This document shows positions 19,095 through 63,262 of a stretch of 64,000 nucleotides of DNA, piece after piece; the stretch's first letter is position 1, and every line of letters starts with the position of its first letter. The position numbers and the translations under genes were made by a program. Below the pieces are notes generated by a model. It saw only the letters and a program-made list of their open reading frames with translations, was not told where the DNA came from and did no database searches. Origin of the DNA: Tribonema minus (taxonomy: Eukaryota; Sar; Xanthophyceae; Tribonematales; Tribonemataceae); NCBI GenBank assembly GCA_017506865.1, contig JAFCMP010000095.1:124001-188000 (forward strand), written 5' to 3'.

Positions 19095-22000
19095 CTAGAT
19101 GCCGAGCGCCTGCTTGGAAATGGAGACGTGCGACTCTGCGTCGATGAGGTTGTCGTGCACCTTCTTCACGATGCCGTCCTTGCCGATGACGTACGTAACG
19201 CGCCCGTCGAGCGCGCCAAACATGCTGCGGGAGAGCGGAAGAACGCAACGCGAAAGAAAAACAAGAAGGATTTGAGGGGAAGGTTAGCGCGAAGAAAAAG
19301 GGAGTCAGCAGACAGCTTGCGCACCGCGCCGCCGGCGTCCTATACTACATACTTGTTGAGCATTGTCGCCGAACGCTTAAGTCAGCACCTCTGCAGCCAA
19401 ACTTCCACAAATCAGCCAAAACCCAAACTTCAACAATGTGACGCTCACCTGCGCGGCACGTTGTAGAGCTTCCGCACGGCACCGCCTGCATCCGCGAGCA
19501 GCGTCATGCCGAGGTTGTACTTGGCCTTGAACGCCGCCTGCTCGGCGTCGCTGGAGATGCCGATGATCTCCGTTCCGGCCTTGGCAAATACAGGCAGCTC
19601 TGCGTTAAACTGCGCGTGCGCGCACACACACAGACACACACACAACAGCGCTCAGGTCAAGGTCGCTTCTCGTCAAGCCGTGTGTGCACTGCCGCGTGAT
19701 ACATAGGTATGCAACGCGCGCATAACGGTGACTGGATTAGATAATGTCTCTGTGCCGGCCTTGGCAAACACGGGCAGCTCCGCGTTGAACTGCACGCACA
19801 CACACACACAACAGGGATGAAGCCAGGGTCGCGTCATGTCACGCCGTGTGCGCAGTGCTCTCATGCGACAGTTATATACTCAGCGTCGCGGGAGATGACA
19901 ACGATCTCCGTCCCGGCCTTGGCAAAGACGGGCAGCTCCGCATCGAACTGCAAAGTGCACGCACAACAGCGAGCTCAGCTCAGGGCCATCGTGTGAGAAG
20001 TACTTGAACACAAAAGCCATCCCCAGAGTATACTCTCGCCACGCTCATGCTCGGTTACCCGTCTCGTCCCGGCTGTGCGAGAGTCGGTTGGAGTTTGAGG
20101 CCGCGTGTAAGAGACAATTGGTCTTCTGAGGTCACGCCGTGTACGCACAGCTCCCATGACGGTAGTCACAGCAGCAGCGACATCCGTGTCTGCCTGTATA
20201 CAAGCTAACCCTGCCCCCTAACCCTAACCTTAACAAAGCATACTCCCCAAATGCCCATGTTAACCCTAACCCTGACCGTAACCCACAGTATCAATCTGAG
20301 TAGCCACGTCCACCCTGACCCTGACCCTGACCCGGAGCATCAAATCAGTATGTAAACCGCCCTGTTGAGCTTGCAACGTTGGGAGTGCGCAGAGTGCAAA
20401 GTAGATCCAGAGGCTCGTGCGCACTGTGCGTGCCATCCCGCCCAAACCTCTCATTTCAGTGTCACGGGCAGCATGGATGCGCACGCTTCTTTGAAGAAAT
20501 CATGGGCTACAGAAAATGCGCGTCAAGACGCCTCGCAAAAGTGTGCGATCGGTGCCGTGTCCAAACTCTGCAAAGCAAAAAACCACACAACGTATGCACA
20601 CAGTGCCTACCTACGTAAACCTAACCCTAACCTTGACCCTTAACCCTAACCCCGAGCCTACCCCTACCGAGAGGAGCCCGTGCAGGACACTGCACGCACC
20701 CCTCGGTGCACCCCGGCGTGCAAACATGCACACAAAACGTACCTATCTGCTGAAACTTTTAGTAGGGTTAGGGCAGCGCACTCACTGCGCGCGCCTCCTT
20801 GATGCATCCCGACGCACATACATGCACACAATACCTACATACCCCACCTACTTGAGAGGGTTAGGGCAGCGCTCTCACCGCGCACGTCTCCTTGGCGCTC
20901 CCCGGGCGCGCATACATGCACACAATACCTTCATACCCACCTACTTTAGCAGGGTTAGGGCAGCGCTCTCACCGCGCACGTCTCCTTGGTGCTCCCCAGG
21001 CGCGCGATACATGCACACAATACGCGCCTACTGATTGTTCACTCACCGCGCACGCCTCCTTGGTGCACCCCGGGGTGTCGCTCTTGGGGAAGCTGCGAGG
21101 GCGCGAGAAGAACGTGAAAAGTGCACAAGCACAAGCAACAACGATGAGGCAGCCACCGGTAGACGAGGCGCTCACACGAAACAGCGCTTTCAACGCAATT
21201 GAAGCCGAGCATGAATGAATGAGTCAATCTGCGCGCGCAGGAGTCCACCTGCCCAGGAGGAGGGGGGGGGGGGGGGGGGGCACTCAAAAACGCTGCAAAT
21301 TCACAAGGTCCCGAAATGGGCATGTGTCTGCGGCTTCACACACAAGAAACCCGCGCCGACGCGCTGCGCCAGCAGAAGACCGACGCCGGGTTGCACGCAC
21401 GCGTTGCACGCTGCGGCAGCCGCCCCCTCCGTTGCACTGTGGTCAGCAGTGGTGCGCGCGAGACGCAAGTGCCGCCACAACATGATGGAAGACACACGGG
21501 AAGCGTACTGCATGTTGTGCACTGTGATGCCGACTGCGCTGTGGCAGGTGTTGATATGCTAGTACTCGTACCAGCTGCTTCGTGTATAACTGCTCTGTGG
21601 TATCTGGTGACGGTGCAAAAGCACTGCCAGAGCCGGTCAGCTGCCAGCCCGCGGTCACCTCCGAGTTATTTGAGCATCGCCAGAATCAAACTCTTGGAAT
21701 CATGTACTCGCCTGCAACAAGATGTGGTGGCGATGAGGACTAAATGTAGAAGCCGTTTTCGTGACTGTGAAGGCAAGTGAAAGCTAAGCGCTGGCTGCAT
21801 GTGACTGTCTCAAGTTGAAGAGAATGACACATGCACGACAACACCAGGGCTGCTCAACGATGCACGCACAGCTATTGTCACTCACAAGAAGAGGACGACG
21901 TTCTTCTTGCCCTTGAAGCTGCTGAGAGAGACAGACTTGCCCGCAGAGTCCTGCGACAGGAAGACAATATGAACTTCATGTCACCTCGGTGCTGACTCTC

Positions 22001-22733: not shown

Positions 22734-25700
22734 ATGAACTTCGGGCCAGGCAGAGGCTTCGGCGGCCCGCCACCCCCCTTTTTCAACAACAACAACAACT
22801 TCCCTCGCGGACCGCCGCCTCCATTCGGTGGCCCGCCAGGCGGCCCTCCGCCAGGGCCACCCCCTCCCTTCGCACGCCCACCGCCTTTCAATGGTGGCCC
22901 CCCGCCTCGCCCTCCCGTCGGCCTGGGCATGCCTCCCGGGCCTGGCGGACCGCCGCCGAGGCCCTTGCAAGGAGGCATGCAGATGCCTCCGGGTGGGCCA
23001 CCACCTCCATTTGGAGGTGGGCCCCCTCCCCCTTTCAACGGAGGACCGCCGCCGCCGATGGGGCGCCCGCCGCAGCAACAGCAGTGGTATCCCGGGCCTC
23101 ATCTGCCGCCTGCCATGCCGCAGCAGGTGCAGGGCCCCACAGGTAAGCTCCGGGTGCAGTGCGATCCTCTTGAGATCAGGTTGCGTCCGACCTGTGCTGC
23201 GGACGAAGCTCAAGCACCTGTATGTGGTTAATGCCGGCAAATGCTTGTCCGACATTCTCTAGTTTGCAACACGAACTTTGATCTATGCAAAAGTCAGATG
23301 CACCTGTGGCTTCCTGCATGATCTTTGACAAGACCGTCATACCTGGATCCCCTCCCCAAGACTATCATGCCTGGATGCCCTCCCTCAGCACAAAACACAC
23401 ACTGGCAGCCAGCAGTCAGAACAGAGCTGCCTGCCGCGCTGTACTCGTACTCCTGCTGGACATTAGCGGCGCAGTTCCAGCTCCGCTACAGCCCCAACTT
23501 TAACTGACTAAACGGTGTGCGGTTACTTCACACGCACCCGCACTTTCGCTGCCCTATGCTGCCATCAACAGGCCAAATTGAACCGGAGAAGCTGTTCGTG
23601 ACGGTGTACGTGGGGAAGCTCGCAGATGCTGTGGAGCCGCAGTACGTTGGCGAGGTGCTCAGGAGCGTGGGCCGGCTGGCCAAGTGGAACAGGGCCAATG
23701 ACGCGGAGACGAACAAGCTTAAGCACTTTGGCTTTGCGACGTATCGTACTGCTGAGGAGGTGAGATTCAGGTTCCATCGCGTTCATCGGTGACACACGTG
23801 GTCCTGCTGCATTTAAAGTATGACATAGCAGTCAGTATGTCTAGTAGTGGTTTCTTCAAGAATGACGTAGCAGTGGGTATGTCCAATACCGGTTATTTGA
23901 GTATGACATATGTAGCAGTAAGTGTGTAAGATGGCAGTCTCTTCAAATATGCCGTAGCAGTGAACATGTATAACAGCGGTGTCAGCGCACACGCCTGTCT
24001 CAGCGGTTCAGCAGGACCGTGTCGCGGCGGCCTGCTTCAGTAGGATCGCTATAACAGCAAACTCAATGCGGGTATGCACTGACACTGTTACGGTCACGAG
24101 GATGCACTTCAGACAGAGACCCAATAGCTGGAGTGCTTACAGTTGTAGTTGGAACTGTGATAAGTAGTAGGCATATGTGTGTGAGCAGGGTTTCGCTTAC
24201 TCCCCCCAAGCAGTATTTACACCTACTGACAATCACGTTGCTGGCATTGCTTCATTGCGACAATGCAATTGGATGAGGCGCTGGCTTTTAGCGCAGTTGA
24301 GCGCTGTGCACTTTGCCATTCTGCATCATCACATCAAGCCCTCATTTACTAGGTACATCGATCATCCGAGCCTCTCTGTGGCGGATCGCCGCACAGTACG
24401 ATGGACAGCACGACTGATACCCTATTTGCGCGCAGGCGGACGTCGCGGTGAAAGTGCTCAATGGACAGAAGGTGATGGGCGAGGAGCTGCTGGTGAAGGT
24501 CGGAAAGAAGGAGCAGGCCGCCATCGACGAGTTCTTTGCGAAGAAGTCGGTGAGTGCGCTGCAGCAGCGCTCAGCATATGCAGCGGAGGTCGCCAGTGCA
24601 CTTCGTTCTTGGGCCTTCCTTCATACAGTATTTGGTCATACCCGAGTTCTTTGTGAAGACAGTATGTCGGTGAGAGCGCGCAGCAGCGCCCGGCGTATGC
24701 GACGGAGGCCATCAGCGCACTTCATTTTGCCTTCCTTCACACAGCATCTGGTCATCGAGTTCTTTCCAAAGACAGTGAGTCGGCGCGTGCGCTGTAGCAG
24801 CGCTCAGCACATGCGAGGCCACTGATGCACTTCGTCTTGGGCCCTCTGGCACACCAGATGCACTTGCAGTGCTCGTTGGTGCCTGCGCCGCCCTCCTTAC
24901 TGCTGATGGGCAGCCTACCGCCGTATCTTCACCGTTAAGCAGTTTTGTGTGCATGCAGCGCATGACAACGGCGTTGAGGTGGACTACCGCCGCTGAGCAC
25001 TGCTGCTGCAGTCATTGCCAGTTGCCACCATTTGCAGCGCCACCAATATGCGTGCAAGCACCGTTTGCTCGGTGGCCACGCACGTGTGTGTGAGTTGAAA
25101 CTTGAAGTTGATCACTCCTGCCGCAGTCATTGCCAGCTGCCTCTGTTGCAGCGCCACCAACATGCAAGCACCATTCGCTTGGTGGCCATGCCCCAAGTGT
25201 GTTGAAGTTGAAACATAAAGTTGAAACGGCCCGTCGCCACTGCAGCCGACCAGTGCGGCCAGTACGCATGCTTCCGCAGCCTGTCATGGTGGATTAATGA
25301 GGTTGGGCCTTGGTATTGAAGTTGAACCTGCCCCCCCCCCTGCGCGCCGCAGCCGTACCAGCTCACCAGCCACCAGACGCGCGTCGCAGACGCGCGCAAG
25401 CGGATTCTTGAGGTTGAACCTTGATGTTTAAGTTGAACTTGCCCCCCCTCTTGCCGCCGCAGCCGTACCAGCTCACGAGCCACCAGACGCGCGTTGCAGA
25501 CGCACGCAAGCGCTTCGAGGCTGTAGTGGCCGCTCGTGAGGGCCCTAAGGTCAAGCTTGAAGAAGCTGCCGCCAGCGGCGGCGACGGCGCAGCAGCGGCG
25601 GCGGAGGCAGAGGCGAGCGGCGTGCAGCCAAAGGCAGAGGCGACCGATGCGGGGAAGAGCGCTCCCGCTGCCGCTGATGCAGCAGCTGCTGCAAAGGGAG

Positions 25701-28700
25701 CGGAGGGGGGGGCGGTGAAGGGGGAGGGGGACGTGCTGGTGCCGCCGCCGCTGCGCCGCGATGAGAACGGGGAGCCAGAGGTGAGCGCTGCGTATTGGTC
25801 CCTCGGCGGTGCAACAGCTGCTCTCGTGCCTCGCACTGCCTCTGTCCGCTGAGCTTTGAGCGCCGCGTTGCGCACGTTCGCTACCGCCAGCACACCCTGC
25901 TGCCGCCAATGGGTATGTCTGCGCGTGTTGCCAGCGAGCAATGACCATGTACGCCTGCCGCCAAACCCCGTACTTCTGACTTACACTTCACAGCTCGCGT
26001 CATCTTGCATCTACGATGAGCACCCGTGCCTCGATGCGTTCAATCATACTGCGCTGTGCGCGTCGCGCTCCGCAACGCATCCTACAGTGATGCGGTCATT
26101 CACACAGCGCCTCGTGCGTCGTAGTCCGCGACTCACCCTACTACATTTGTGTATAATGCCCTTGAAAGCAGCAAGGAATGACGGAGGAGAAGGCGGCGTA
26201 CGCCTTCAGCGAGGCGATTAAGTTCCGCCGCCTCCAGGAGGAGCGCGACCGCCGCGACGAGGAGCAGCGGCGGCAGGAGCTGCAGCGCCGCCTCAAGGCA
26301 TCGCACCGCGCGCAGGTGGAGAAGCAGCGCGCGGAGGAGGAGGCCAAAGCCAGGTATGTGCGTACCTTTTATTATGTATGTACTTCAAGATGAAGTAGCA
26401 GCGCATTGTGCGCGCGCGCCGCCTCGAGGCGCCGCACCGCGCGCAGGTGGAGAAGCAGCGCGCCGAGGAGGAGGCCAAAGCTAGGTATGTATGCGCATTG
26501 CGTGTGTGTGCATATCCAAGGCGCCACGCTGCGCGCAGGTCGAGGGGCGGCGCGCGGAGGTGAAGACCAAAGCCGGGTATGCATGTATGTATGTACAGCG
26601 TACGTATGTTTGAGCGTATTGGGTGTGTGTATACCCGAGGCGCTGCGCCGCGCGCAGGTTGATAAGCAGCGCGCGGAGGAGGAGGCCAAAGCCAGGTATG
26701 CATGTACCTTCTATTTTGTATGTACTTCAAGATGAAGTACTAGCAGCAGCGCGTTGTGCGCGCGTGCGTTCTCGAGGCAACGCGCCGTGCGCAGGTCAAG
26801 CGGCGGCGTGCGGAGGAGGAGGCCAAAAGCCAATATGCATGTATGTATGTATGTATGTATGTTATTGTCTGAGCGCACTGGGTATTTGCATATAGGGGCG
26901 TCGCACAGCGCTCAGGCGCAGGAGCGGCGCAAAGGGGAGGAGTGTGAGCAAACTTGTAGTCTGCATATGATCATTGCCGCTGGCCGCGCGCTAAGGCGCT
27001 TGCGTCTTAAAACAAACGGGTACTCTTGTGGCGAGGAGCAGCGCGAACGCGAGCGCTCACTGACGATCCCTCGCGCATGCGCATTGCGCCGCGCCGCTCA
27101 GGGCGCTGAAAGAGGAGGCCGAGGCGCTCAAAGCGGCCGCCAAGAAGGCAGCGCTCGCCGCAGAGAAGGCAGAGCAGGAAGCCGCCGCCGCAGCAGCAGC
27201 GGGCGACGAAACCGCCACCGCAGGAGACGGCGCCGCCGCGCGCGACAAGGGCGGCGAAAGGGAGGGCTCCGCAGATGGCGGCGGCGACGCGTCGCGGCGC
27301 CGCAGCAGCCGCAAGCGCAGCCGCGAGGGGCGGCGGCACAGCCGCTCGCGCAGCCGGTCGCGATCGCGCGGGTCGCGGCGGCGGCGCAGCGGCGGCGACC
27401 GCGAGCGCAGCCGCGAGCGCAGCCGCGAGGGCGACCGGCGGCGCAGCAGCGACAGGGACCGGGACCGCGACCGGAGGGATAGAGACAGGGACAGGGACTC
27501 GGAGCGGGATGGGGGGCGGCGGCGCGATAGGGATGGCAGGGGGGGGCGTGAGGGGTCGCCGCCGGGGGGAGGGCGGCGGAGGACGAGCGGCGCGCGGCGC
27601 GGCGCGCGGAGTCTGTGGCGATCGCGGAGCAGCACAAGCGCGACGAGGTGAGCTTGAGTGCTAACACGACAGCAGTTGTCATTCATTGAGTAGTCACGTG
27701 ATACGACTTTGCGCAAGCGCGCAATGGAATAGACGTACAGTTGAGGAGTGCCTGAGGCCAGTGGCGCGCAGAGTCTGCGGCGATCGCGGAGCAGCACAAG
27801 TGCGATGAGGTGAGCGCGCGTGTTAAAACGCAAGCGATCGTCATATGAATAGGGCAAGTCATTTGATGCGAGTGCATGAGCGCGCAATGAAACAGCTATG
27901 CCACCTGCAGACTGCCTGGGGTTAGTGGCGCGGAGGTGGCGGCAGCGGCGGCGGCAGCGGCGAGTGCAGCGCAGCATAAGCGCGGCCAGGCGAGCGTGGA
28001 GCGGTGCAGTCGTTGAGCAGGAAGCAGCCATCGTCAGTTAAGTAGTAATGTGCTGGGGGAGTGCGCCACACCAAGCAGGCACAGATGCGGTGATGCAGGG
28101 GTGCAGTGTGCCTGTGAGGTTTGAAGGGGGCCTGGCAGGGTACCACCACGCCTGCTCGGCAACTGTCAGCTTCCAACCTAGCTACTGGCTGTCACGCTGC
28201 TGCGAGGCGTATGCAGGATGGCGCAGAGCAGCACAGGCGCTGTTGGTTGAGCAGGTGCCGCACGGCTGTTTCATTGTAACTGTCAGCCCTCCTGACATGA
28301 TCAACAGACAGTTCACGGCGCTGCTGCGTGATGTACATGCAGATGTACGCGACACAGGCGCTCGCTTCCGCCCAGCAGGTCATGAAGCGGCATCTACGGC
28401 AACTTGCTGCAGGCATTCTCGTGCAATATTTCACTGCAATGCAAGCGAGCATGCAAAGCACTCAGACAGCCGTTTTTCAGTACAGCGCGCAACAAGCTTC
28501 ATGCCCTCGTGCCTCTGGTCTCCGCTGCGGGCCTGGTACGCTGTGACACGATGGCAGGTCAGGGGCGCCTCAGCACGCTTCTGCCAGGTGATTCTAATCA
28601 CCCTTCTTCAAGTACCCATCTGAAGCATGATTTGAGATCGGCTCCGCTTTCCTCCGCTCCTCCAACTGCCTGATGCGTCCAGCGCAAGCTCGGGCGAGCG

Positions 28701-34600: not shown

Positions 34601-34607
34601 TATAAAT
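34601..34607 (+). promoter_or_regulatory. Possible TATA box
   Basis: TATAAAT lies 240 bp upstream of the ATG at 34849 in otherwise mixed sequence. This is a motif match only. Confidence 0.3.
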
Positions 34608-49700: not shown

Positions 49701-52480
49701 CGTCGTCAAGTCCGTACTTCGTGTACTCTTACTACATTGAAGTACCAAGTTAACAGCAGGTGCGTACTTCACGTATATACATTGAAGTATCAAATAACAT
49801 ACTGTTGATGCTTCTACTTTGAAGGTTACATCTCACATTGCGCACTTTGGCCGTGTCAAGGGCCTCAAACTCGGCGATGGCGTGCAGCGCGTCGGGCTCG
49901 GGCAGCGCCTCCAGCAGCTCTAACGCGCGCGCATTCACTTCGCGTGGCGCCAGAAGGCCGCTGTCGTACAGTGCGCCCATGCGGCGCTGCACGGAGGGGT
50001 GCATCCGCTGCGCACGCATAGGCAAGCGATAAGCGATAGAGTGCAGGTTCACACATGCAGATACACTTGAACCGGCGCAGCTCATGTGATTTGCGCTCGC
50101 CGTCGCGTGGGCGATCACGACGATGAGCGCTGCTGCAATGGAGGTCGACGTCACGCAGCGGCAGGAGGCCGTTGTCGCACAGCACACCTATGCGGCGCTG
50201 CACGGAGGGGTGCATCCTCTGCGCGCGCGCAGGCGCAATTGAGCGCAGGTTCAACATTTCAACCATCAAATTGTGCCTTGGTCCGGGTTGACGTGGCGCC
50301 CACTGTTGGATTTTTGTGGTATGTATTGATGGGTTGCGCGCTGCTGCGATGGAGGTGCGCCAAGGGGGGGTAGTGGTAGGGTCAGGGTTAAAGCGCGCCC
50401 ATACGGCGGCGCTGCACGGAGTGCATCCTCTGCGCGCACGCCGCGGGCATGCAGCAGGCAAGCGAGCGCGTGCGTGTTCACATGATGCATGTAGCGATCA
50501 TTGCTGAGGCGACACTGAGCGTGAGCAGCGCGCCCATGCGGCGCTGCAGCACGGGATGCAGTGTAGCACTTGAAGTAACGAACTTGAAGCACAGCATCCT
50601 CAATATTTGCATCAAGCCGCTACGAGACCCCGTGCTCACCTCCGTTCCGTACGGCACGCGGTCAAAGTGCGGCGGCGGCCCCCCCCCGCCGAAACGCGCA
50701 CCACCCCCTCCCGGCCCCTGCCATCCCGGCCCGCCTCCCCCCCCGCTCCGTGGCGACGCCCCCCGCCCCCCCCCCCCTGTCCATCACCCCCCTATCCAGC
50801 GGAGGCTCCAACGCGCGGTCATAGCCGCCTTCGGGCCCCATGTAGCGCGGCCCGCCTCTCCCCTCCAGCTCGTGCTGCGGCGGGTACGGCTCACCCGGGT
50901 AGCCGCCCCCCGGCTCGGGCCCCCCCCCATACCCCCTGTCCGGCCCCCTCTCGGGATAGCCGCGTTCGGGGGGGGGGGCTGCGTACCTCCGATCGGGGCC
51001 GCCGTAGCCGCGCTCATCGTAGCCGGGCTCGCCGGTGCCGTACCCCTGGTCGTAGGGGGGGGGTCCCCTGTCCACCCCCCCCCTGTCGAACCCCCTGTCG
51101 GAGGGGTCCCTGCCGAGGGGAGGCATTTCCGCGGGGTACCGCTGATCGGGGGGGGGGCGGTCCAAGGGCATGCCCCTTTCCATCGCCATGCCCCTTTCCA
51201 TTCCCATGCCTCTGTCCATCGGCACGCCGCCCGGCGGGCCCCGCTCCCTATCCAGGGGGATGCCGCGCTCCAGGGGCATGCCTCTACTACCAGGGGGGTA
51301 CATGCCCCCCTCTACGTGCGCGCCGCGGTCAGGGGGGGGTATGCCCCTATCGAGCGGCGGGCCGCGCTCTCTGTCCAGGGGCGCCACCCCCCTGTCTCTC
51401 TCCCTGTCCGAGGGCACGCCCCCCTCTGCGCCGCGCATGCCGCGCTCCGGGTACCCCCTTTCAGGGGGCATGCCCCTATCCACAGGCATTCCGCGCGCAT
51501 CCGCATACCCCCCGTGGGGCTCCATGCCGCCGCGCCCCCTGTCCATAGGCAGATCGCGGTCCATGCCCGGGGGGCCCCTGTGCCCCCCCCCCGGCGGCCC
51601 CCTGGCATCCGGTCCCCTATCCATGCCCGGCTCCCCCCTAAAAGGCCGCCTATCAGCGCTGCCGTCTGGCCTGTCCGGGCCTCTGTCGCCTCTGTCCGGC
51701 CCGCCATCACGGCCAAGCCCCCTGCCCGGTCCCCTCCCAGGCCCCCTGCCCCCCCCCCTGCCGCCGGGGCCAGGCCCCCTATCAGGGCCCGCCCCCCTGT
51801 CCGGGCCGTACCCCCTCCCAGGCCCAGGGCCCCTGCCAGGCCCGCCGGACCCCCTGTCAGCCCCCCTCGCGAACCCCTGCCCGCGATCGAGATCCGCCGC
51901 ATCTCTGCTCGGCGGTCCGCCCCTGTCGGGGGGTCCCGCCCTGTCCCTGGGCGCGCCCCTGTCCCCCACGGGCGCCCCCCTTTCCGGCGCCCCCTGCCTG
52001 ACGACGCTGCCCCCCCTCTCCGCCCCTGCGCGATCCATCGCCTCCGGGTACCGCTCCGCAAGCCCCCCGTAGCGCTCCGCGCCGCCACGGTCGTCATAAC
52101 CGCCGCGCGCCCCCCCTGCGGGGTACCCCCTGTCTTCGGGGGGGAGCGCCCCCCTGTCCCCCCCGCGCGCCTCCAGCGGCATCCCCCTGTCCAGCGGCGC
52201 CGCCGCCATGTCGTCGCGCGTTTCGCCGCCGCCGCCGCCGCCGCGCGCGTACGCCGGCTGCTGCGGCGTGCGCTCCGCGAACGCTTCCGGACCGTGCTCG
52301 CGGAACTCGCTGCTGCGGTCAGCGTACGGTCCGCCGCCGCCGCCGCCGCGCTGTTCCGGGAACGGTCTGGCGGAGCGGTCCGGGAATAGTCCGCCGCCGC
52401 CGCCGCCGCGCTCATCCTGGTGCTGCGGCGGCGGCGCGCCGCCGTCCAGCGGCTGCTGAGCGTAGCCACCGCCGCCCCTC

Positions 52481-52516
<36 letters not shown>

Positions 52517-55500
52517 ATCATGTCGCCGCGCTGTGGCTGCTGCTGCTGCGGCGGCGGCTGCTGCTGCTGCTGCGGCGGAGGGCCCTGGCTGCCGGGGTCG
52601 TACTGCCCCTGCTGCTGCGCGGCGGGGGCGGCGCTCGCGGGATAGCGGCCCGGCGCTGCCGGGGCGGCGGCGGCGGCGGCGGGGGGATCGGACCCCCTTG
52701 CTGCGGCAGCGGCGTCGGCGCGTACTGCGGAGGCGCACAAAGCGACGGGCGCACATGAGTTTGTTGTTGCAATGTTGAAATGGCGGTCAAGAACGTCATG
52801 CGCTTGTACACCTTGTTGTCGAATGAATGACATGGCATCAAAAGCGCATGCACATCTGACCCCCCCCCCCCCCCCTCCCATTTCCCCCACCGACCATCCC
52901 CACTTTTGACCCCCACTATATGAGAATACCTGAGCTGAGTTAGCACAGTAACCCTGTGGTCGCGATGAGGACTGCTGAGCAACGACATCTCCATGGACCA
53001 AGACTGTCGTAGCAGGAGGAAACACGGCGACCTCCACAGCAGCTGAACTTAAGCAAGCGGCAGCAGCGAGTTGGGACTGAATTGGTCAAGGATATGAAAA
53101 ACGAATCAAGAGATCAAGGATATATTGTGCTCAAAGGCGATACTTCGAAGTACATACTAACCCTGCTGGCATGGTCTTTGACGCACTTTTGTGGTGCTTT
53201 GTTCACAAAGTCAAGACTTGCAGTGGCCAGAAGCATTTGATGCGATATACTGACGCGAACCTAACCCTAACCCTAACCCTAACCCTAACCCTAAATGTAA
53301 TCAAGGGCATAGATTATGGCAGCAGCTGCAAGAAGTGCACAATGGGCAGTCCTGGTCAGAAGCAGGTCGTCTGCCTATCCACCTTGGATTGGCAATACGG
53401 TTCCTCCTGTTGTGCAGCCTACATCCAGCCTGCGCTGGGCAATTCAGTTGTTTGAAAATGCACGAAAGGGTCCATCAAGTGCAATGAATGCCCCCACCAC
53501 CACAAGTAACTCATGCTGCTTTCCGGGGTAGTGGTTGCCAGACACGCCAGACAACAGCTCAGGCCACTCCGCTGTATACCTGACCGTGCTGCGGCGGCAG
53601 CACCAGTCAGCAAACACAACTGGCGCCGCTGACCGTATCGCGGCGGCAGCACTGAGTAACAAAGAGAATAACGGTCAGCGCACTGCATACCCGATCGCAC
53701 TGCCGCGGCAACGCCGAGTGGCAATTTCAACTGGACCTACTGATCGCACCGCGGCAGCGGCACTGGGCGACAAGTAGAACTGCAGTCACTGCGCTGTATA
53801 CCTGATCGTAGTGCGGTGGGGGCACTACGACTTGATCGCACTGCAGCGGCGGCATTGAGTAAACACAACCGGGGTCACTGCGCTGTATACCTGATCATAG
53901 TGCGGCGGCAGCACTACAACTTGGTCGTACTGCAGCGGCGGCATTGGGTAAATACAACTGCACTGTGTACCTGATCGTACTGCGGCGGCAGCACCGGGTG
54001 GCGTAGCGTCCCCGTACCCTGCATGACCGGCTGCTGCTGCTGCGCTGCTCTGCTGTACCCCTGCTCAGCGGCAGTTGCGGCGAAACGGCGGGCGATAAGG
54101 GGTCCAGCGATGCGTCCATCTCCGCGGTACAAACCGGGAACACGCACCGAGATCTGGCCGACCATGGCGGAAAAGCAACGCTTGTTGCGCGCAGGCATGC
54201 ATTGCTAGGCGCGTCACAACAGCGGTGGTTCAGTTCTAAACAACTTCAACACTTTGTCCAGTCAGCGCATGGCGCTTCTGCACGCAGCCGCACTTCTAGA
54301 GCTCGCTTGGCACGCAGTAGGAGAGTCACCCGCAAAGAAGGCCTCGCATCTGCCGTGAGCCTACAGACTTACGAAGCTCCACATGTTATGCATAATTACG
54401 ATACATATGGCCCGCTGTAACACTGCCTGCTGTGAACGCCGGCTGCTGCTGCGGCAGCGGCAGGTGCCACCCCGCTCCCCCCGCTCCCGCGCACCACTGG
54501 TGCTTACAACCCTGCCGCGACAGTAGCACTGACCCCGAAATTGTCACTCGCGGTGCCTTCATCACAGTAGCACTGGCCCCGAAAGCTGTCGCTCGTGGCG
54601 CCTTCACACTGACAATGTGACAGTACGTACCTGCCCATCGTAATACTGCCCGTCGCGAGCTGCGTACTGCTGCTGCTGCTGCGGCAGCTGCGCAGCGCCC
54701 GCCGCGTACCCCTGCGCGGGGCCCGCCGCCTGCGGCACGCCCGCCTGCTGCTGCTGCTGCAGCTGCGCCGCTGCCCCCGGTACCATGCCCGCCCCCTGCA
54801 GCCGTCACAAGCGCAGACGTCTTGAGCAGGTGCAACTGCCTGCAAGCGGCAAAGTTGCGCTGTACCGACCGTCAGACTTCATTGTGGAGTGCATAAATAC
54901 TATAGCCATACATAGCTGCTGCTGCTGCAGCTGAGCCGCTGCCCCGGGCACCATGCCCGCCCCCTGCAGCGCCAGCACGAAGCGCAGGCGTATTGAGCAG
55001 GTGCAATGGCCTGCACGCGGCGAAGTTCAACTGCGCAGACCGCCAGACTTGATTTTGGACCGCATATATTCAGTATAGGTACTTGGAGGGGGGGCGTCAA
55101 CTGCAACTGCCTGCACGCGGCGAAGTTGAGCTGCACAGACCGCCGGGGCCTCATTTTTTTTCAAACGCGTACATCTAGAATACCCATACCTACCCGTGCA
55201 ACTGCCTGCACGCGCTGAAGTTCAACCTGCACAGACCGCCAGACTTCATTCTGGCATGCATTGAGTATACCCATACCTACCCAGGGGGCGGCCCCCCATT
55301 TTGTGCCCGTGCTTGCCGGAGTTGCACCGCGCAAAAGTGACAGCGAGCTGCATGATTATGGGGACACTTGGTGGCTGCTGCGGCAGCGGCTTATACCCCT
55401 CATTCTAGGTGGCAGCTGACCGCCTGCATATCGCACAGGGACGCTCTGCTCGAAGCTGCCAGATCTTGAACCGCAAGCGCGAGTAGAGATGCTGAAGGGG

Positions 55501-57870
55501 AGCTGCTGCAAGTTTTTTGCCAAGCAAGCGCTGGCGTGCGCGCGGGGCGCGCGAGCCGTTGCCGTTCCCGCGGTGCACTTAAAGTACGCGAAGGCCCCTC
55601 AAAGTTACATACATGCCAGGTAGAGTATACATACATACCAGGTTGCAGCATACATCATACAAGGTTGTAGTACACAGACATACCAGGTATGGGCTACCAG
55701 CTGGAGCAGGCCTACCAAACACGTGAGAGCTTTCCAAACTGAACACCCATGCCTCGAACGCTAGAAAAGCTTGAGTCTTTTGACTACTGTGGATATCATG
55801 GCACTGACTTGTGGCCAGTGACTGCAGCAGCGGCGACCACGGTCATTGGTGGAAGGCATTTGCAGCTAACCACACATTGTCACCTAGAGCTTCACCAGGT
55901 TGTTTGTAGCATACCAGGCTGTACGGTACATACGTTCTGGTCGTAGTATACATACATAACAGGTCGTAGTATACATATATGCCAGGTCGTAACACACATA
56001 TATACCCGGTTGTACTACACTACCACTACCAGGCTGTAGCATATACACATACTTACGATACATACCAGGCTGTAGCATACATACATACATACCGGCTTGC
56101 ATACACTACTTACCAGGTTATAGCCGACGCCGCCCACGGGCTGCTGCGGCGCATACGCCCCTGGCTGCTGAGGAGGACCCCCCCGCAGCGGCTGTTGCGC
56201 GGGTGGCGCGCCGATCGCCGAGGGCTGCGTGAATGAATGCATGGATGGATGAATGATGAGTTACATTCACGGAGGCGGCTGTTGCGCGGGCGGCGCGCCG
56301 ATCGCCGAGGGCTGCACGAATGGATGGGTGAATAAACGAATGAATGAAAGAATGGATGGATGACAGGTCACATTCATATGGGTTGCTGTCGCCTGAGTGG
56401 CCCACCGACCAGCGAGGCCTGCGTGAAACTATGGGTGAATGAATGAATGAATGAATGGATGTTGGGTCATTCATGAATGAAGCAGGATTGCGGGCTGCGG
56501 TGCGAGCCCTGAGGTAGTCGCCGCGCAGAGGAGCACAGCCAGCATCATCATGCAGCCGCTGACCTTGAAGAATGAATGAATGAATGAATGAATGTAGAGT
56601 AGTTCATTAAAATGCAGCGGCGGCCGGCGTCATGCAGCCGCACTGCAGTCGCAGAGGCCGGAATCGCGTACTGTACCATGCCGCAATGGTCCATGAATGG
56701 TTCGTACACACAATACTGCTTGCAATGAGCGCTGTCGCATTTTTTCATGGTGCCTGCAGCGCCTGAGACTTGATTTGACGGGCGCACATGCATTTTTTCG
56801 TTGTGGAGGTTGCACTATGATGTACCGTTCTGGGCGTTCCTGCAAAGCGAGGTTTGTAGCCTGTATGATGGTGTACATGCCATGCTTTGTGCAGGAGGTG
56901 CAATGGATTTGAGCTTGTTCACGCCCGCACACTGTCTCTCACGCTGAGACGTAGAGGCACGGCGCAATCTCGGACGCGTGCACATGTCTATCTGCATGCA
57001 TGCTGAGCGCTGCCGCCCGCCGCGCTGCACACATCCATGCATACACACACGCACTGACGCGTAGGGGCATGGCGCATTCACAAACGCATGCGCATACCTA
57101 CCTGCTCACATGCGCAGACAAAGAAAGGCAGCGCTCACCTGCTGCTGCGCGGGCGCCGCCGCCGCCGCGCCGTATGCGCCCTGCTGCGGCAGTGCCTGCT
57201 GCTGCTGCGCCGCCGCCGCAGGCAGCAGCAGCTGCTGCTGCTGCTGTGGCGGCATTCCCGCCATGCCGCTGTACGCACCTCCCGCGTCCATTGCTCTAGC
57301 GCCCGGCGCACGGTACTGATCGTACAACTGCATGTGCGGGGATGAGATCTAGGGTTAGGGTTTGTGCCTGGTAAGGGGGGGGGGCTGGGGCTTGCGCAAC
57401 GTATTTACGCTGGATAGTCGCGGCGCGAGTTGAAGGGGGGGGGGGGGGGGGGGGGGGCATATCTGGACTGGGAAATGGCAGTATGATCATTATGATGACG
57501 ATGATAGTTGAAGTGTGAGTTGGAGGTCAGAGACAGATATGTTGAACTTTGAGCTGGAGTTCAGTCGGGGTCGCCGTCTGTGCTACTCGTCGCAGCACGC
57601 ATCAAGGCACGCGTCGCAGCAGTCAGATCTAGGGTGCGGGAGGTGGCAGCACGTCGCTATGTGCTGAAATCAGGTTTAGGTTTGAGATCATATGATGCAG
57701 CATGAGCGTCCGCGAGCGTCCAAAGTGCAACAACAACATTCCTTATTCGCCACACGAGCTGCCGCGCTTGCTTCTGCGTCGCAGCATTGCCTGGACGGCT
57801 GCGGCAGCGGCCGCAGTGGCGGCGATGGCGGCCGTCCCCGTTAGTCGACTTCATGTCATCTGCTGCTGGG

Positions 57871-57903
<33 letters not shown>

Positions 57904-60900
57904 ACCGCGTTGCAAACACGAACACCCGTCTAGCGGCGGCACATGCTTTGCCGATCGCCGGAGCACAACGCGGCGTGGTCCTGCTATCCTGTAACTGCTT
58001 GTAACTGCTTTCAACGACGGTCATCGGTGGCGTGCTGGCGGCGGCGAGCTGACGCCTGTACCGCGCACACACAGGCGGAGTCAGACGGAGTGTGCTTGCT
58101 CGCACCCTGCGTGTGCGACTCAACGCGTCGTTGATCTCGAATGCAACGTTTCGCACCCACAGGAAGGGCGAAAACCCTTATCAACAGATACTATAGGGCG
58201 GGAACTCTCACTTACATAAGGTTAGGGGTAGGTCAGGGTTAAGGTTGGAAGTACCGTGCACAACTGAGCGCTGCTGCCGGAATCTGCGCGCGCACCTGCT
58301 GCGCCGCCGGCTGTCCAGGGTAGCCGCCATACTGCTGCTGCTGCTGCGCGCCAGCTGGCATCCCCCCCTGCCCCCCCGCATACGCGCCCGGCTGCTGATA
58401 CGGCATCGCCGGCGCGCCGCCAACTGCGCTGTACTGCGGCTTGTACTGCTGCTGCGGCAGCGGCGCCTGCTGCTGCAGCGGCAGCAGCTGCTGCATGGGT
58501 GCGTAGCCGCCAGGGACCTGCACGCGTGCGATGTTGCAGAAGGAGAGTCACCACCAAGAACTTCAGCAATAGCAATCGCTGCTACGACTTAGGGTTAAGG
58601 TTAGTTGAGCCTGACGCCGCTGTACTGCGGCTTGTACTGCTGCTGCGGCAGCGGCGCCTGCTGCTGCAGCGGCAGCAGCTGCTGCTGCATGGGTGCGTAG
58701 CCGGCAGGGACCTGCACGCGTGCGATGTTGCGGAAGGAGAGTCACCACCAACAACTTCAGCGAAAGCGCTGGTGGTGCTACGCGACTTAGGGTAAGGGTT
58801 GAGGTTAACCCTAACTCTGGGCCGCCGCATGGAAAGCCAGAACATCGAAAGATGGGTGTTACCAAGCGACAATTAAGCCACAGAGTGATGTAACATCAAC
58901 ATTGGCATAACCTCAACAGCCCCGCCAACAAAAAAGTGAAAGCGCCAGTGGCCCAGTCGCTGAACCGTTGTTGCAGTTTGCATATAGAACACCAATCTCA
59001 TTGATGTCTGGTCTGGCGCCCCTAAGAGCCGTACAAGTGTGATACACCGCAGTCCACCGCTGTACTGGCCAAGTATACCCCTACATACCTACATGAATGA
59101 GTATAGGGCACCGTCATGGCCAGCAAATGGGCTATGAATGGCATCAGCATGCAACATGTCATGTCGAGCGGCGCACTGTGCTGCAAGTCATGTTGAAACG
59201 CCAGGACAAGGCATGTTAGTGTCGATGATACAGCGGCATGCACTGGCGCTACCCTCTCTCTTCATAAAAGTGGTTGACAAGGACCGTCGCGCCTCACCAC
59301 CAAGGCTGCTGCAAAGAAGCCAGCGAATACAGCGCGAATGCACCATACTCCAGCGCAGTTCACGTGAAGCCGCTCACACCTGCGCGTGCGGCGCTGGCAC
59401 CGCGACTGACAAGCCAGCAAGTACAGCGCGAGTGCACTGGACTATCATGCAGTTCACCACGAGTGCACTGTACTATCATGCAGTTCACATGAATGCGCTC
59501 TCACCTGCGCGCGCAACGCCGGCACCGCCGCCCCCCTGCTGTACCCCCTCAGTATCGACAGCAGCAGCTCCGTGGGGTCACGCGCCGCTGCCACGTCGCG
59601 CCGTCCCGCGACCTCATTCATCGCCGCCAGCGCCTCCGACTGCGAGGGCGGAGCAGGGCAGGGTAGGTAAGGTAGTTGAGCTCGGCCAATGGGGTACAGG
59701 TGGGGGTTCACTGTACCGAGGTTGGGCTGCGATGTGGCGCAGCAGCAGCGCTGACCCTAACCCTAACCCTAACCCTAAGCCCACGTCGTGCCGTCCCGCG
59801 ACTTCGTTCATCGCTGCCAGCGCCTCCGACTGCGGCGGCAAAGCAGTGCGGGGTAAGCATGGTATATTGGACTGCGATGAGGCATGGCAGCAACACTAAC
59901 CCTAATCCGAACCTAACCCTAACCCGAAGGTCACATCGCGCCGTCCCGCGACCTCGTTCATCGCCGCAAGCGCCTCCGACTGCGGCGGCGGAGCAGGGCG
60001 GGGTAGGTAAGGTATATTGGACTGTACCGAGGGTGGACTGCGATGAGGCACGGCAGCAGCCCTAGCCCTAACCCTAACCCTAAGGCCACCATCGCGCCTG
60101 CTGGCAACCTCGTTTATCGCGCCAAGCGTGATCGGCGTGCCTTCAGCTAGAGAAGTCAACCCCATGAGGTACAGGCGGGGTTCACTGTGCTGAGGTTGAA
60201 CTTGAGATAGGCGGCAGCGAGCAACCGCGTGTTCACGCCACAAGCCGCGACGACCCCCCTGCCTGTGGGAACTCCAAGTTATGATTGGTAGGCAGCTCTT
60301 GCGGCTCGCAGCCCAGCAAGGGCCGTATGACATGGGTCGGGGTCCGGGCGGCCACTTGTGCGCCTGTGTGCCCCGGACAATATGCAGTTGGAAAGGAGAA
60401 CAGCCGTTCTGTGTGCCCGAATTCACAAACCGCTCCGGATCGTGCGCGTGTCGATCAGTACATCGAGTGCACGCTGCGCGCACCAGCGCGCGTACGAGCG
60501 CAACCAGACACACCTTCTATTCTATCAAGCAGGAAGAGACTTTTTCCATGCGACTCTCCCCGCCGCTGAAGCTTCGACAACATCGAGCGCGCCGTCGCGC
60601 AGTTTACGCAGTGCATCGTCCATAGTGACTCTCCGCGCCAGTGGGAACTTCAACCACCTCGCTTGTGCCCAGTCTGCCGCCGGCGGAAGCCAATTGCACG
60701 ATAGACGACTGCACCGCACACAGCAACGTTCACAGCACAGGTGGTGCGCGCGATCGACTTCGAGGCGATGCTGCTCGTCATCAGCACAAGACGACAGTTG
60801 CCCATGAGAGGCAGTTACATGAATCTGACGGTATGTGTAGACCTTGTGCAGAAAGAGCAGCGAGGGGGCGAACCAGTTGTGCTGGTGTAGGGCGACCGCT

Positions 60901-63262
60901 GACTTGACCTAACCCGAACCCTAACCATGACCTAACCCTAAGCTGACGATGGGAAGTTGCGCGTGATGGTGCCAAAAACATACCACATCGACTACTGCGC
61001 CATGGATGCAGTCCGGCGTATACGCGGGTAATACACACGTTCGTGCATACATACCTCTGTCATTTCCCGAAGGGTGTCCATGCAGCGCCCGTCCATCTGC
61101 AGCGAAGCAACGACGCACGGAGGTTACAAGTGGCGATTACAGATGGCAATTACAAGTGGCGGTTACAAGTGGCGCAGGTCAGCGCAGCTCAGTCAGCTGC
61201 ACGCGCGCGCTGAAGGGCATCGCAGCAGCAGCAGTGCTCAGAGGCACTACGGCAGTGCTCAACGCTGTGCTAGCGGTGAGCAACAGCAGGCTACGGTCAT
61301 TCACAAACGGTGACTGATGTGAAGTTGTAGCTCCATGGCACTCTGCGCAACAGGCGCTGCATGCTTGAAGAGAGGTGACACCAGTTAAAGTACAGTACAT
61401 GGAAATTGAAGTATGCATGCCACCTGTCTTCCAGCACACAAGGACACGCACACGCACGCTGCGCACGCGCTCCCTGCTGCCATCACAGCGGGCGTACGCA
61501 CAGCAGCAGCAGCACGCCACCGTGACCATGGCGTACTGATACACCGGGCGAGAGGCAGGCGGGCGGTACTGTAGGTGCGCCATTACAGCTCGATCCGCGC
61601 CTGCAAACTGGCGTGCGCGCGGCGACCGCAACAGGGCACCATAGGGTTGGGGGTAGGGTTAGGGCTAGCTGTGGCGTTACCTGATCGCGCCGGACCACGT
61701 TCATCCCGTACAGCTGCTCCAGCTTGATCTTCACAGGGCGCGTGAGGCCGTCCGGGCCCGCCTGCGGCATGGCGCGCATCGGCATGCGCCCCCCCGCTGC
61801 CCCCCCCATCCCCCCCTGAGCGCTGCTGCCTCCCGCCCCCATCGCCGCCATCGCGTGCTGCTGCGGCAGCGGCGGCGGCTGCTGCTGCTGCGGCGGCGGC
61901 GCCTGCTGCGGCGGCAGCGTGCTCGCCTGGTACTTGCGCAGCACGCCGAGGAGGTACGCGCCCTTGTTGTTGCGGATCGCGGGGCCCGCGTCCGCGATGC
62001 CGTACGCGTACTCGTTAAGCGCCGCGTAGCCCTGCGGGGGCAGAGGTTACAGGGGGGGGGGCGGGGAATAAGGGTTAGGGTCAGGATATCAGCGCCGCAG
62101 CCATGCTGATGTCGTGCCTATGTGCACAAGTGCCGATGAGCGGCTGCAGTGCGCTGCAGGGCGCACTGGTTGAGCGTTGCGCGGCCGCGCAGAGCAATGC
62201 TGACGCAAGGTGGGAAGGAAGTCTAGCGAAGCGGTGGCGACAGGGGTCAGGGCACTCCTAATGCACACTGACGGACGTGGCGGCTTACGTGTAACTTCGC
62301 ATGTGAGTGTCTGCGTGTAACAATGAGCACTGGTGCGGCGCGAGCAGCGATTGCGCGCCGCTGTCGCGTACCGCAAGGAGCAAATTGTCGTCCGCGGCTG
62401 TCCGCGTACGCGCTTACGCAAGTGTTGAAGAGAGATTGCAGAAGCTTGCGCACTGTCCCTGCAGTTGGTGCATAGTGTGTTTAAAGCAAGCTGCTTTTCT
62501 TTGTGCCAGGCAGAATTCCAAAGGTGCAATGCGTGCACACGCGCGTTGAGCGGTGGCAACGCTCCCAATGCTTAGCCGTCGGCTGACGCACGTGCGCTAA
62601 GGATCATTTTTACGGCGGCAGGATGTGGTGCTAGTATCAACCACATCAAGCACAAGGTACAGGCAGTGGAGCAGTGCAGGCGTGCCGCAATTGTCTATCA
62701 CAACCGTCAAGTCCCCGCACTGTAGACTGTGCTTCAATTGGCGGCAGAATGCTGTATGCCAAGGCAACAACAGCCAGGGGTGGTCTGTTGTGCGCAGCTG
62801 CAGCAGAGCTTGGCAGAGGCGCAGTATCTTTCTCCGCTGTAGATCTCTTGATGATGGATGCAGCAGGATCCGATTTGCGACGCACCTACAATCCTGGAAG
62901 ATTGGGCTGTGCCACACAGAATCCGCAAACTCACAAGTCCGTGAATGTTAAAACAATTGCTCTGCTTACAAAAACGAACGAGACCGGCAGCAAAAGAAAA
63001 GCACTTGTGGCGAAACGCAGACGATTGGCAGGTAAATGTGGAAAAATAGAGCAGATTGAAGTGCTGCTATGTGCGGATCAGATTGATAGCACACGCAAGC
63101 AATAACTCTGCTGGGCTGGCTCACCAGCTCGTCCGTCAGCTCCGACAGCAGGCTCAGGATGCGGGTATCGGCAAACACCCTCTCGTCTTCCACGGGGTTG
63201 AAGATGGATAGGAAGCGGGAGCGTATAGGAGGACGCAGCTCATCTATATTGCGCGCCATCAT
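39648..63262 (-). CDS. Giant RNA-binding-type protein with four hnRNP-Q acidic (NURR-like) domains
   Basis: Eighteen exons on the minus strand: 63125-63262, 61681-62031, 61055-61096, 59505-59639, 58296-58517, 57139-57327, 56114-56224, 54631-54795, 53971-54060, 50640-52724, 49837-50007, 47996-48324, 46830-47039, 46260-46349, 45526-45627, 44644-44780, 42360-43467, 39648-40781. They sum to about 2,270 codons. Borders are GT-AG and phases fit throughout, apart from one missing base in 47996-48324 and two compensating indels in 50640-52724. Each of the four acidic domains is a helical unit ending in a V/I-R-[ND]-[KP]-S-A-Y-L-like signature (RNNKGAYLLGVLRKY; RDPTELLLSILRGY; VRN with PGLSFFGIVRAHY; VRDKSAYLMGLLKRY). 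In animal hnRNP Q/R this domain precedes RRMs, but no RRM is seen here. Q-rich, RG-rich and K/A-rich linkers suggest a nuclear RNA-granule scaffold (inference). Confidence 0.85.
42360..43467 (-). CDS. Exon 17: Lys/Ala/Ser-rich, histone-H1-like composition
   Basis: About 369 codons rich in AAAKPAA-, GDKKPAG- and SPKAKAAAA-type units, beginning SRASREGYAREAHYPASH and ending VDDEHGSTAQ. It resembles the tail of linker histones in composition only, with no globular domain, and is probably disordered and basic, able to bind nucleic acid. The GC-rich antisense frame over the same stretch is a shadow. Confidence 0.8.
43680..43945 (-). repeat. Exon-edge echoes before exon 17
   Basis: Copies of the acceptor and first codons of exon 17 (CAGGTCGCGCGCCAGCCGCG, then GAGGGCTACGC) lie at 43680-43735 and 43893-43945, about 220-230 bp apart, each preceded by a 'TTTTCCAA/GTTGGAAA'-containing intron segment. 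Confidence 0.88.
44293..45090 (-). repeat. Exon-edge echoes on both sides of exon 16
   Basis: Donor-side copies (CACGACTGGTGAGC) lie at 44476-44535, 44379-44400 and 44293-44315. Acceptor-side copies (ACGCCGACGTA-GACG-CAG...CCCGACGGCAA) lie at 44860-44935 and 45015-45090. The true exon is 44644-44780. Confidence 0.88.
45205..45505. repeat. GTACACAT-type short repeats
   Basis: Units such as GGAGTACACATGGA, GAGTACACATAG and CGAGTACAAATCG recur in four clusters (about 45206-45240, 45299-45330, 45365-45390, 45462-45500) just after exon 15 in gene direction. Between them lie echoes of the exon 15 donor end, the closest at 45417-45470. Confidence 0.7.
45526..47039 (-). CDS. Exons 13-15: fourth NURR-like domain
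   Basis: Exon 13 (46830-47039) has RGRDDDYYAGG then the domain start FPALYKRVSERVYFTFQ. Exon 14 (46260-46349) is ALVAQGLLVSEEVDDDKL...DASA. Exon 15 (45526-45627) is VAALDEFSSCDMTRVRDKSAYLM...GPE. Joined in phase 0 they give one complete helical domain with the GLL..EEVD and VRDKSAYL signatures of the hnRNP-Q acidic family. Confidence 0.85.
46428..46495 (-). repeat. Exon-edge echo before exon 14
   Basis: The first ~40 bases of exon 14 with its acceptor (GCAGGCGCTGGTGGCGCAGG, then GCCT) recur about 140 bp upstream. AACTTCAAG motifs lie on both sides. Confidence 0.85.
47165..47440 (-). repeat. Exon-edge echoes before exon 13
   Basis: Two copies of the exon 13 start (CGCGGCCGCGACGACGACTA) lie at 47165-47235 and 47337-47440, the latter also including the GACCGGCGCGACCCCAAGGC part of the exon. 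Confidence 0.88.
47736..47755. repeat. Interstitial TTAGGG tract
   Basis: Three clean TTAGGG units on the plus strand in the intron after exon 12. Further variants lie at ~47310-47325, 47630-47645 and 48369-48412 in the same introns. Confidence 0.85.
48835..50560 (-). repeat. Exon-edge echoes flanking exon 11 on both sides
   Basis: The true exon is 49837-50007. Copies of its 3' half (EALPEPDALRAIAEFEALDTAK then VR and a GTGAG donor) lie at about 49602-49690, 49440-49510, 49305-49372, 49165-49222, 48962-49030 and 48835-48880. Copies of its 5' half (CAG acceptor plus RMHPSVQRR) lie at about 50150-50225, 50395-50440 and 50520-50560. At least three donor copies keep a GTGAGA or GTAAGA site. This is the richest echo cluster in the window. 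Confidence 0.9.
49837..50007 (-). CDS. Exon 11: core of the third NURR-like domain
   Basis: 57 codons starting RMHPSVQRRMGALYDSGLL and ending DTAKVRN. With the next exon (48324 downward: PGLSFFGIVRAHYDRLGPDF) it forms the domain. It is the copy closest to animal hnRNP Q/R: GL-x4-ELD-like turn, ALELLEALPEPDAL, then AEFEALDTAKVRN. Confidence 0.88.
50640..52724 (-). CDS. Exon 10: long RG/DRG-repeat region
   Basis: About 695 codons. Starts YAPTPLPQQGG, passes a Q-rich block (QQQQ), then hundreds of residues of short units of the form M-P-x-[DE]-R-G, G-P-D-R-G and Y-P-E-R-G, and ends PPHFDRVPYGTE. Arg-Gly-rich tails bind RNA and are usual targets of arginine methylation. The middle is out of frame with both ends by one base, shifting at a G5/C6 run near 52690 and a G8 run near 50740. 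The total length is still divisible by three, so two compensating indels are implied. Confidence 0.82.
53260..53295. repeat. Interstitial CCCTAA tract
   Basis: Five to six clean CCCTAA units on the plus strand, in the intron between exons 9 and 10. Confidence 0.92.
53560..53970 (-). repeat. Eight echoes of the exon 9 donor edge
   Basis: The exon 9 end (GTGCTGCCGCCGCAGTACGA then TCAGGTAYAC) recurs near 53572, 53630, 53690, 53735, 53800, 53850, 53895 and 53940, roughly every 40-65 bp. Several keep CAGGTATAC. The true exon is 53971-54060 (VLPPQYDQ end). Confidence 0.9.
54912..54975 (-). repeat. Exon-edge echo before exon 8
   Basis: The CTGCAG acceptor and start of exon 8 (GGGGCGGGCATGGT, then GCCCGGGGCAGCGG) recur ~180 bp upstream. 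Further decayed units of the intron part (GCCTGCACGCGGCGAAGTT-like) continue to about 55260. Confidence 0.88.
56275..56430 (-). repeat. Exon-edge echoes before exon 7, with (ATTC)n arrays
   Basis: Copies of the exon 7 start (CAG then CCCTCGGCGATCGGCGCGCC) lie at 56275-56318 and, more decayed, 56395-56430. Each is preceded in gene direction by an ATTCATTC microsatellite; the same microsatellite precedes the true exon at 56224. Confidence 0.88.
58612..58720 (-). repeat. Exon-edge echo before exon 5
   Basis: About 100 bases of exon 5 with its acceptor (VPAGYAPMQQQLLPLQQQAP) recur ~200 bp upstream of the true exon 58296-58517, with an open frame and only a few changes, followed by a TTAGGG-like tract. 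Confidence 0.9.
59754..60130 (-). repeat. Exon-edge echoes before exon 4, each carrying a telomere-type tract
   Basis: Three copies of the exon 4 start (SEALAAMNEVAGRRDV) lie at 59779-59848, 59935-60003 and 60085-60130. Directly after each, in gene direction, stands a run of TTAGGG units (plus-strand CCCTAA at 59754-59779, 59895-59930 and 60060-60085). The unit is about 150 bp. Confidence 0.9.
60900..60945. repeat. Degenerate CCCTAA tract
   Basis: CCTAACC-type units with variants, in the intron between exons 3 and 4. Similar short tracts lie near 57350, 58215, 58590, 58790-58815, 61645-61670 and 62065-62085. Confidence 0.75.
61681..63262 (-). CDS. Exons 1-2: first NURR-like domain and second-domain start
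   Basis: Exon 1 (63125-63262) begins MMARNIDELRPPIRSRFL, and the paired ATGs at 63262-63257 are the only start in frame. Exon 2 (61681-62031) continues GYAALNEYAYGIADAG then RNNKGAYLLGVLRKY. A Q/P and Met/Gly linker follows, then RPVKIKLEQLYGMNVVRRDQ, the first helix of domain two. That domain continues in exon 3 (MDGRCMDTLREMTE) and exon 4. Confidence 0.87.

Follow-up and report, generated by a model that had tools for sequence, protein, structure and literature searches.

Many introns in the genes of Tribonema minus, a xanthophyte (Xanthophyceae) of the PX clade, contain worn copies of the edge of the adjoining exon together with its splice site. Copies of an exon's 3′ edge and donor lie in the following intron, copies of its 5′ edge and acceptor lie in the preceding one, and both are local and have diverged from the exon. 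Judging from the sequence, these copies, here called echoes, are probably the scars of local tandem duplications after which the outermost splice sites would have stayed in use. Such scars would make introns longer while leaving the protein as it was, and they can pass for exons in annotation. The lengthening of introns without harm to the gene is rarely visible; here, its presumed traces are common enough for statistics and bring a clock of their own.

Gene models and occurrence of exon-edge copies

The analysis covered the window, that is, the whole stretch of 64,000 nucleotides under study (G000:C95:124001-188000 in the search of the whole genome, whose assembly has 554 contigs and 158,181,000 bases), together with other loci of the same genome. 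Local direct repeats, defined as being at least 40 bp long with copies within 600 bp, make up 15.5% of the window, 9.0% of 25 other loci of 10 kb (250 kb) and 0 of Markov-3 shuffles, of which one was made per sequence. As no repeat pair of such size was found in the shuffles, the exon-edge copies pointed out in the initial annotation of the window exist far above chance. Later counts of echoes are based on 354 kb, namely, the window plus 290 kb of other loci.

Genes were modelled with a small hidden-Markov gene finder, written by ourselves and trained on these same sequences. Because 19 introns of deposited models from these same genes served as the seed of its splice matrices, the recovery of the five PrxQ exons (exactly) and of the RBM25 exons (mostly) is not independent agreement. 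A first setting, under which the entire window became a single gene, was discarded, and a second one was used. Before the main counts, we removed 29 predicted exons recognised as duplicates of a neighbouring exon (the main count was also repeated without this removal), and introns longer than 4000 bp were left out, as were those shorter than 40 bp in the scans of exon edges. After removal, 354 kb contain 32 genes with 207 introns of up to 4 kb, the median length of the modelled introns being 615 bp; for Ectocarpus, PMC12477816 gives a median of 524 bp for autosomal introns and assigns 3.35% of the genome to tandem repeats. A chimeric query of 16 exon pieces led to three deposited T. minus proteins, P0123 (RBM25), P0122 (sulfotransferase, locus L019) and P0121 (locus L006), the last with 448 of its 618 amino acids placed on the locus.

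In the scan for echoes, the last or first 50 nt of each exon were aligned to the adjoining intron with a score of at least 40, and a random other intron served as control. The preceding exon's last 50 nt are echoed in 40/207 introns (permuted control, 0.4) and the following exon's first 50 nt in 36/207 (permuted control, 0.2). One kind or the other is present in 64 of the 207 introns, with 16/38 in the window and 48/169 elsewhere, or in 57/236 (14/43 and 43/193, respectively) when the predicted echo exons were not removed, and a smaller earlier set of 177 introns gave a similar picture. The excess over the control is thereby confirmed beyond the window. The placement described initially also holds, as no exon tail was found in the preceding intron and no exon head in the following one (0/124 testable cases each); part of this polarity arises because the duplications are local. 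Local repeats of any kind are present in 90/207 introns, and such repeats enclose 54 donors and 52 acceptors. The copies, mostly 65-260 bp long and spaced 90-420 bp, are local, direct and arranged head to tail, as in tandem duplication.

All three genes named at the outset, PrxQ, RBM25 and the gene with an hnRNP-Q acidic (NURR) domain, carry such copies (Table 1), which in PrxQ and RBM25 are evident on direct inspection of the sequence. Their number had been put at roughly 40; by our threshold the border-spanning echo copies in the window amount to 30, at 101-1010 bp from the true exon edge. The five-exon PrxQ model encodes 184 amino acids and matches the deposited P0001 from its first Met onward. 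In this gene, the echoes of exon 19449-19609 lie in the preceding intron and have “gcag”-type acceptors, with repeat pairs involving 19747-19952 and 19879-19965. The deposited RBM25 protein P0123 (window 23058-37095, + strand) seems to be fused to a downstream gene, with exons from 35092, over an intron of 3,972 bp.

Table 1. Genes, exon-edge echoes and examples of telomere-like repeats in the window (positions are those of the window).
Feature	Position	Strand	Remarks
PrxQ gene	19095..22459	-	exons 22307-22459, 21886-21950, 21047-21092, 19449-19609, 19095-19224; agrees with deposited P0001
Two echoes, 5′ edge of PrxQ exon 19449-19609, each with acceptor	19747..19965	-	repeat pairs
Array of 94-bp period, 3′ edge of 46-bp PrxQ exon 21047-21092 with donor	20701..21023	-	repeat pairs; single place in assembly
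RBM25 gene, RRM and PWI domains	23058..31122	+	deposited P0123
Two echoes, 3′ edge of exon 24436-24549 with donor (RBM25)	24643..24846	+	
Echo, 5′ edge of exon 25463-25780 with acceptor (RBM25)	25291..25402	+	deposited model: exon 25353-25412
Array, copies of 3′ part of exon 26172-26353 with donors (RBM25)	26285..26942	+	
Duplicated sequence surrounding exon edge 27610 and the small exon 27772-27809 (RBM25)	27601..27935	+	
Echo, 3′ edge of exon 28784-29293 with donor (RBM25)	29377..29519	+	
hnRNP-Q-acidic-domain (NURR) gene, predicted	39648..63262	-	own gene model; may be more than one gene
Two echoes, 5′ edge of exon ending 43467, with acceptor (NURR)	43679..44028	-	
Three echoes, 3′ edge of exon 44644-44780 with donor (NURR)	44245..44525	-	
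Echo, 5′ edge of exon 44644-44780 (NURR)	44866..45095	-	
Echo, 3′ edge of exon 45526-45627 (NURR)	45355..45467	-	
Echo, 5′ edge of exon 45526-45627 (NURR)	46105..46169	-	
Echo, 5′ edge of exon 46260-46349 (NURR)	46433..46516	-	
Six echoes, 3′ edge of exon whose donor follows position 49846 (NURR)	48821..49686	-	
Echo, 5′ edge of exon beginning 50007 (NURR)	50158..50257	-	
Short echo, 5′ edge of predicted 4-nt exon 53585-53588 (NURR)	53873..53914	-	weak gene model
Echo, 5′ edge of exon 54631-54795 (NURR)	54915..55069	-	
Echo, 5′ edge of exon 56114-56224 (NURR)	56275..56461	-	
Echo, 5′ edge of exon 58296-58517 (NURR)	58618..58800	-	
Echo, 3′ edge of exon 59505-59639 (NURR)	59355..59403	-	
Two overlapping echoes, 5′ edge of exon 59505-59639 (NURR)	59781..60128	-	
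Telomere-like repeats, examples	20200-20660, 53260-53294, 59754-59928		

Decay of the copies and use of their splice sites

Decay was followed in 104 echo copies from 66 junctions and 12 loci, 5 gapped copies being set aside. Compared with the true exon, the echoes differ at 110/1539 first, 111/1530 second and 226/1537 third codon positions, a ratio of 2.04 (bootstrap 1.67-2.49), where a neutral copy of a constrained exon should give about 2. Of 99 alignable echoes, 82 retain the splice dinucleotide, as against 1302/1511 (86.2%) of the dinucleotides at codon positions 1-2 of the same echoes (difference, -10.7 to +3.1 points); the smaller earlier set gave 64/74 against a control of 85.9%. The kept GT or AG, which had been read as a pointer to splice use, is consequently retained no better than the control. 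The echoes, then, appear to decay like neutral noncoding DNA, and passive decay would explain the retained dinucleotides. The exon parts of the echoes differ from the exon by about 7% (positions 1-2) and 15% (position 3), less than the 21% difference of the intron parts (78.7% identity) would predict.

Selection could also have maintained the echoes as functional alternative exons or splice sites, as suggested by the presence of GT or AG in most of them, by an open frame in 96/103 and by the use of some as small exons in two of the four deposited proteins retrieved (P0122 and P0123). However, the retention of the splice dinucleotide equals that of the neutral control, the codon-position ratio fits a neutral copy and 18/103 echoes are frameshifted, so that the coding constraint expected of alternative or tandemly duplicated exons was not found in them. 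Moreover, domain scores fall when echoes are included. With the echoes left out of P0122 (partly by hand), Sulfotransfer_3 rises from 20.6 to 40.9 bits and Sulfotransfer_1 from 24.9 to 30.4 bits, and the PP4R3 domain of our own model rises from 176.5 to 196.6 bits when its echo exons are left out. The extra LPIE copies in the latter are absent from all six PP4R3 homologues aligned, including a Vaucheria litorea transcript protein; in one homologue, P0128, unrelated sequence is inserted close to the site of the second echo, and the PP4R3 query gave no T. minus-named match among the matches listed. Based on domain scores, codon-position ratio and homologues, the echo exons were rejected as true exons, and their maintenance by selection is highly improbable. 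Homologous proteins, domain scores and deposited models point, instead, to splicing at the outermost sites. By our own splice matrix, an echo acceptor outscores the true one in 28/52 cases and an echo donor does so in 3/47; as echo acceptors are as strong as true ones by this matrix, alternative splicing through echo sites is conceivable.

In gene models of T. minus, false small exons derived from echoes would distort protein comparisons. The sulfotransferase gene (L019 1369-9039, - strand) has many echoes, several of which are counted as exons by the deposited model.

Origin of the copies and the exon-intron border

In the mechanism that we propose, a stretch within a gene would be duplicated close by. 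Copies lying wholly inside an exon would mostly be removed by selection, while those that are intronic or straddle a donor or acceptor would be tolerable. After a donor-straddling duplication the upstream donor would stay in use, and after an acceptor-straddling one the downstream acceptor; the surplus exon piece, with its splice site, would become intron, and the protein would be unchanged. From then on, the exon copy would be held by selection and the intron copy would decay freely, which should keep echoes recognisable for longer than purely intronic duplicates. Repeated rounds would give rise to arrays and to longer introns.

The distribution of the copies agrees with a local origin. The PrxQ array and the echo region of locus L026 each occur at one place in the 158-Mb assembly, and of 237 repeat copies, 235 are unmatched in every other locus of the 354 kb. 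Among the three other echo regions searched, that of the sulfotransferase gene matches the true exon at other places; the L003 and L007 queries contain coding parts that, as low-complexity sequence, have matches at many places. Repeats beside the splice sites of many introns could also stem from introners or from other mobile elements inserting there, since some introners flank splice sites in this way (PMC7789003). Nevertheless, with units private to each locus, single places for two of the regions and, in two of the three others, matches elsewhere restricted to paralogous exons or low-complexity coding sequence (apart from short matches), the arrays tested are local and not dispersed, and such an origin was rejected as hardly credible. 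A sulfotransferase paralog about 144 kb off on the same contig (G000:C85:60229-60561) shows a second short match to the exon tail, which may be an echo belonging to that paralog.

The initial annotation had named collapsed or mis-assembled haplotypes as a finding that would overturn its reading. Some near-identical contig stretches do exist in the assembly, but the median identity of repeat pairs, about 79%, is too low for such an artefact and the window gene was found once in the assembly; this explanation was therefore rejected, and its probability is negligible. A full second copy of four echo regions, sought as a sign of copy-number polymorphism, was not found in the assembly search. Contigs C144, C223 and C278, as well as C90 and C179, gave protein-kinase matches of equal or nearly equal score, which suggests that these are duplicated or haplotypic contigs.

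Local repeats cover 19.7% of intron sequence, 10.4% of exons (mainly exon ends), 7.1% of the 500-bp gene flanks and 4.7% further out. The ratio of intron to intergenic coverage is 4.1 (2.4-7.8, bootstrap over loci), to which transposon dilution of intergenic DNA or missed genes may contribute.

Whether duplication prefers the exon-intron border is a separate question, since the duplicated unit had been said always to span it. By best pair, 5/25 intron clusters in the window and 30/73 elsewhere do not, the border-spanning ones being 20/25 in the window, 43/73 (59%) elsewhere and 63/98 in all. With exons masked in detection, the figures become 12/19, 18/53 (34%) and 30/72, and 6/26 for two-copy clusters outside the window. 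The null was position-blind duplication, simulated through the same pipeline with varied unit length and age, which yielded 24-38% border-spanning clusters unmasked and 14-29% masked (the two runs differ, with 30-38% and 24-32% unmasked, 19-29% and 14-21% masked). A uniform-placement null, which gave larger excesses, was replaced since it ignored the slower decay of exon copies. Outside the window, the unmasked share exceeds the simulation (p 0.0002 even against 38%), a biased figure, given that the copy in the exon is kept from decaying, and the masked share gives p 0.09-0.31 against 25-30% and p 0.012 against 20%. Much of the apparent border preference would thus exist because selection holds the exon copy, so that border-spanning pairs are recognisable for longer.

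Duplication might nonetheless be targeted, if breaks or replication faults concentrate at borders, for instance, via co-transcriptional splicing or RNA-DNA hybrids. This is suggested by the window clusters that span the border despite exon masking, by the masked share over all loci (p 0.023 against 30%, 0.0014 against 25%) and by the unmasked share outside the window. Yet the masked and two-copy shares outside the window are near the simulated range, repeat coverage at junctions (27% at donors, 22% at acceptors) is only slightly above that of the deeper intron (about 17-25%), and the window, picked in the initial annotation for its echoes, is a biased sample for the border share. We consider targeting unlikely, with a border preference of up to about two-fold being possible; the unmasked excess over the simulation means that position-blind duplication may be wrong. 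Most likely, the echoes arise by ordinary local duplication, which can be seen because selection maintains the exon. From the earlier proposal that introns grow by boundary-spanning tandem duplication we retain the gain in length by local tandem duplication, many units of which carry an exon edge and splice site, and keep the targeting of the border as a possibility.

Known duplications and telomere-like repeats

The initial statement that no named feature type exists was too strong, as a tandem genomic duplication across an intron-exon border has been described in the potato RdRp gene (Ma, Lan and Niu 2016, PMC4974935, who also note an 83-bp tandem duplication within an intron). There, as in T. 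minus, the duplication includes an intron end and an exon start and carries splice signals, and the same spanning of the border is seen here in many clusters, though not in all. By contrast, the potato case is one event that produced a new intron, as was proved by RNA reads, whereas in T. minus worn copies in many introns, known from genome sequence, would lengthen existing introns. In the model in which introns are gained when exon sequence with AGGT is duplicated (Rogers 1989 and Hellsten 2011, as summarised in PMC3443670 and PMC4974935), tandem duplication is likewise followed by splicing of the surplus, leaving the protein intact. That model, in the form given there, predicts the upstream exon tail at the intron end and the downstream exon head at the intron start, while T. 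minus echoes lie on the near side of the intron; the predicted signatures were found in 3/207 and 4/207 introns (score 36; permuted, 0) and, hence, are not the rule, although a few introns may have such an origin. The introner elements of Amoebophrya (PMC7789003) share with the echoes repeats that overlap exon-intron borders in a protist genome, but form families dispersed over genes; related sequence over many loci was not found among the repeat copies of the 354 kb. No description of exon-edge echoes as a genome-wide pattern was found in a search of openly licensed papers. What is notable here, on our best reading, is the extent: tandem genomic duplication, known from single cases, would act on many introns.

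Mutagenic repair of DNA breaks is the source that we infer for the duplications. In mammals, interstitial telomeric sequences have been attributed to double-strand-break repair (PMC2246262), and, similarly, telomere-like repeats are enriched in these T. minus introns. A telomere-like 9-mer was located at 57 sites within the 152 kb of intron, whereas the 142 kb outside genes have 10 and the exons 1; 40 permuted 9-mers have a mean of 1.5 intron sites and a maximum of 9. Its sites are divided 29 to 28 between strands and, therefore, do not represent a strand-specific RNA signal. They form a feature separate from the echoes: 16/57 lie in local repeats, with 14.7 expected, no association was found within intron length classes, and a link between both features was rejected. 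The inserts and the tandem duplications would fit a repair origin for both, yet are unassociated beyond intron length. A broader idea, which we hold to be doubtful, is that introns are preferred sites of breakage and mutagenic repair, above all at their borders, and are marked by scars of two types, tandem duplications across the boundary and inserts of telomere-like sequence. The joint excess of both in introns makes such a zone of repair scars testable. If breaks follow transcription or splicing, gene activity would work as a ratchet that makes introns longer.

Two further features of the window deserve mention. Large frames at 3465-12363 (- strand) resemble what we take to be a Gypsy-type retrotransposon (integrase, reverse transcriptase), and a long frame within them presumably includes a stretch resembling a cytosine-5 DNA methyltransferase. 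Two direct copies of 272 bp outside the modelled genes, at 37417-37688 and 37965-38236, are 99.6% identical, lie 548 bp apart and are much younger than the intron repeats.
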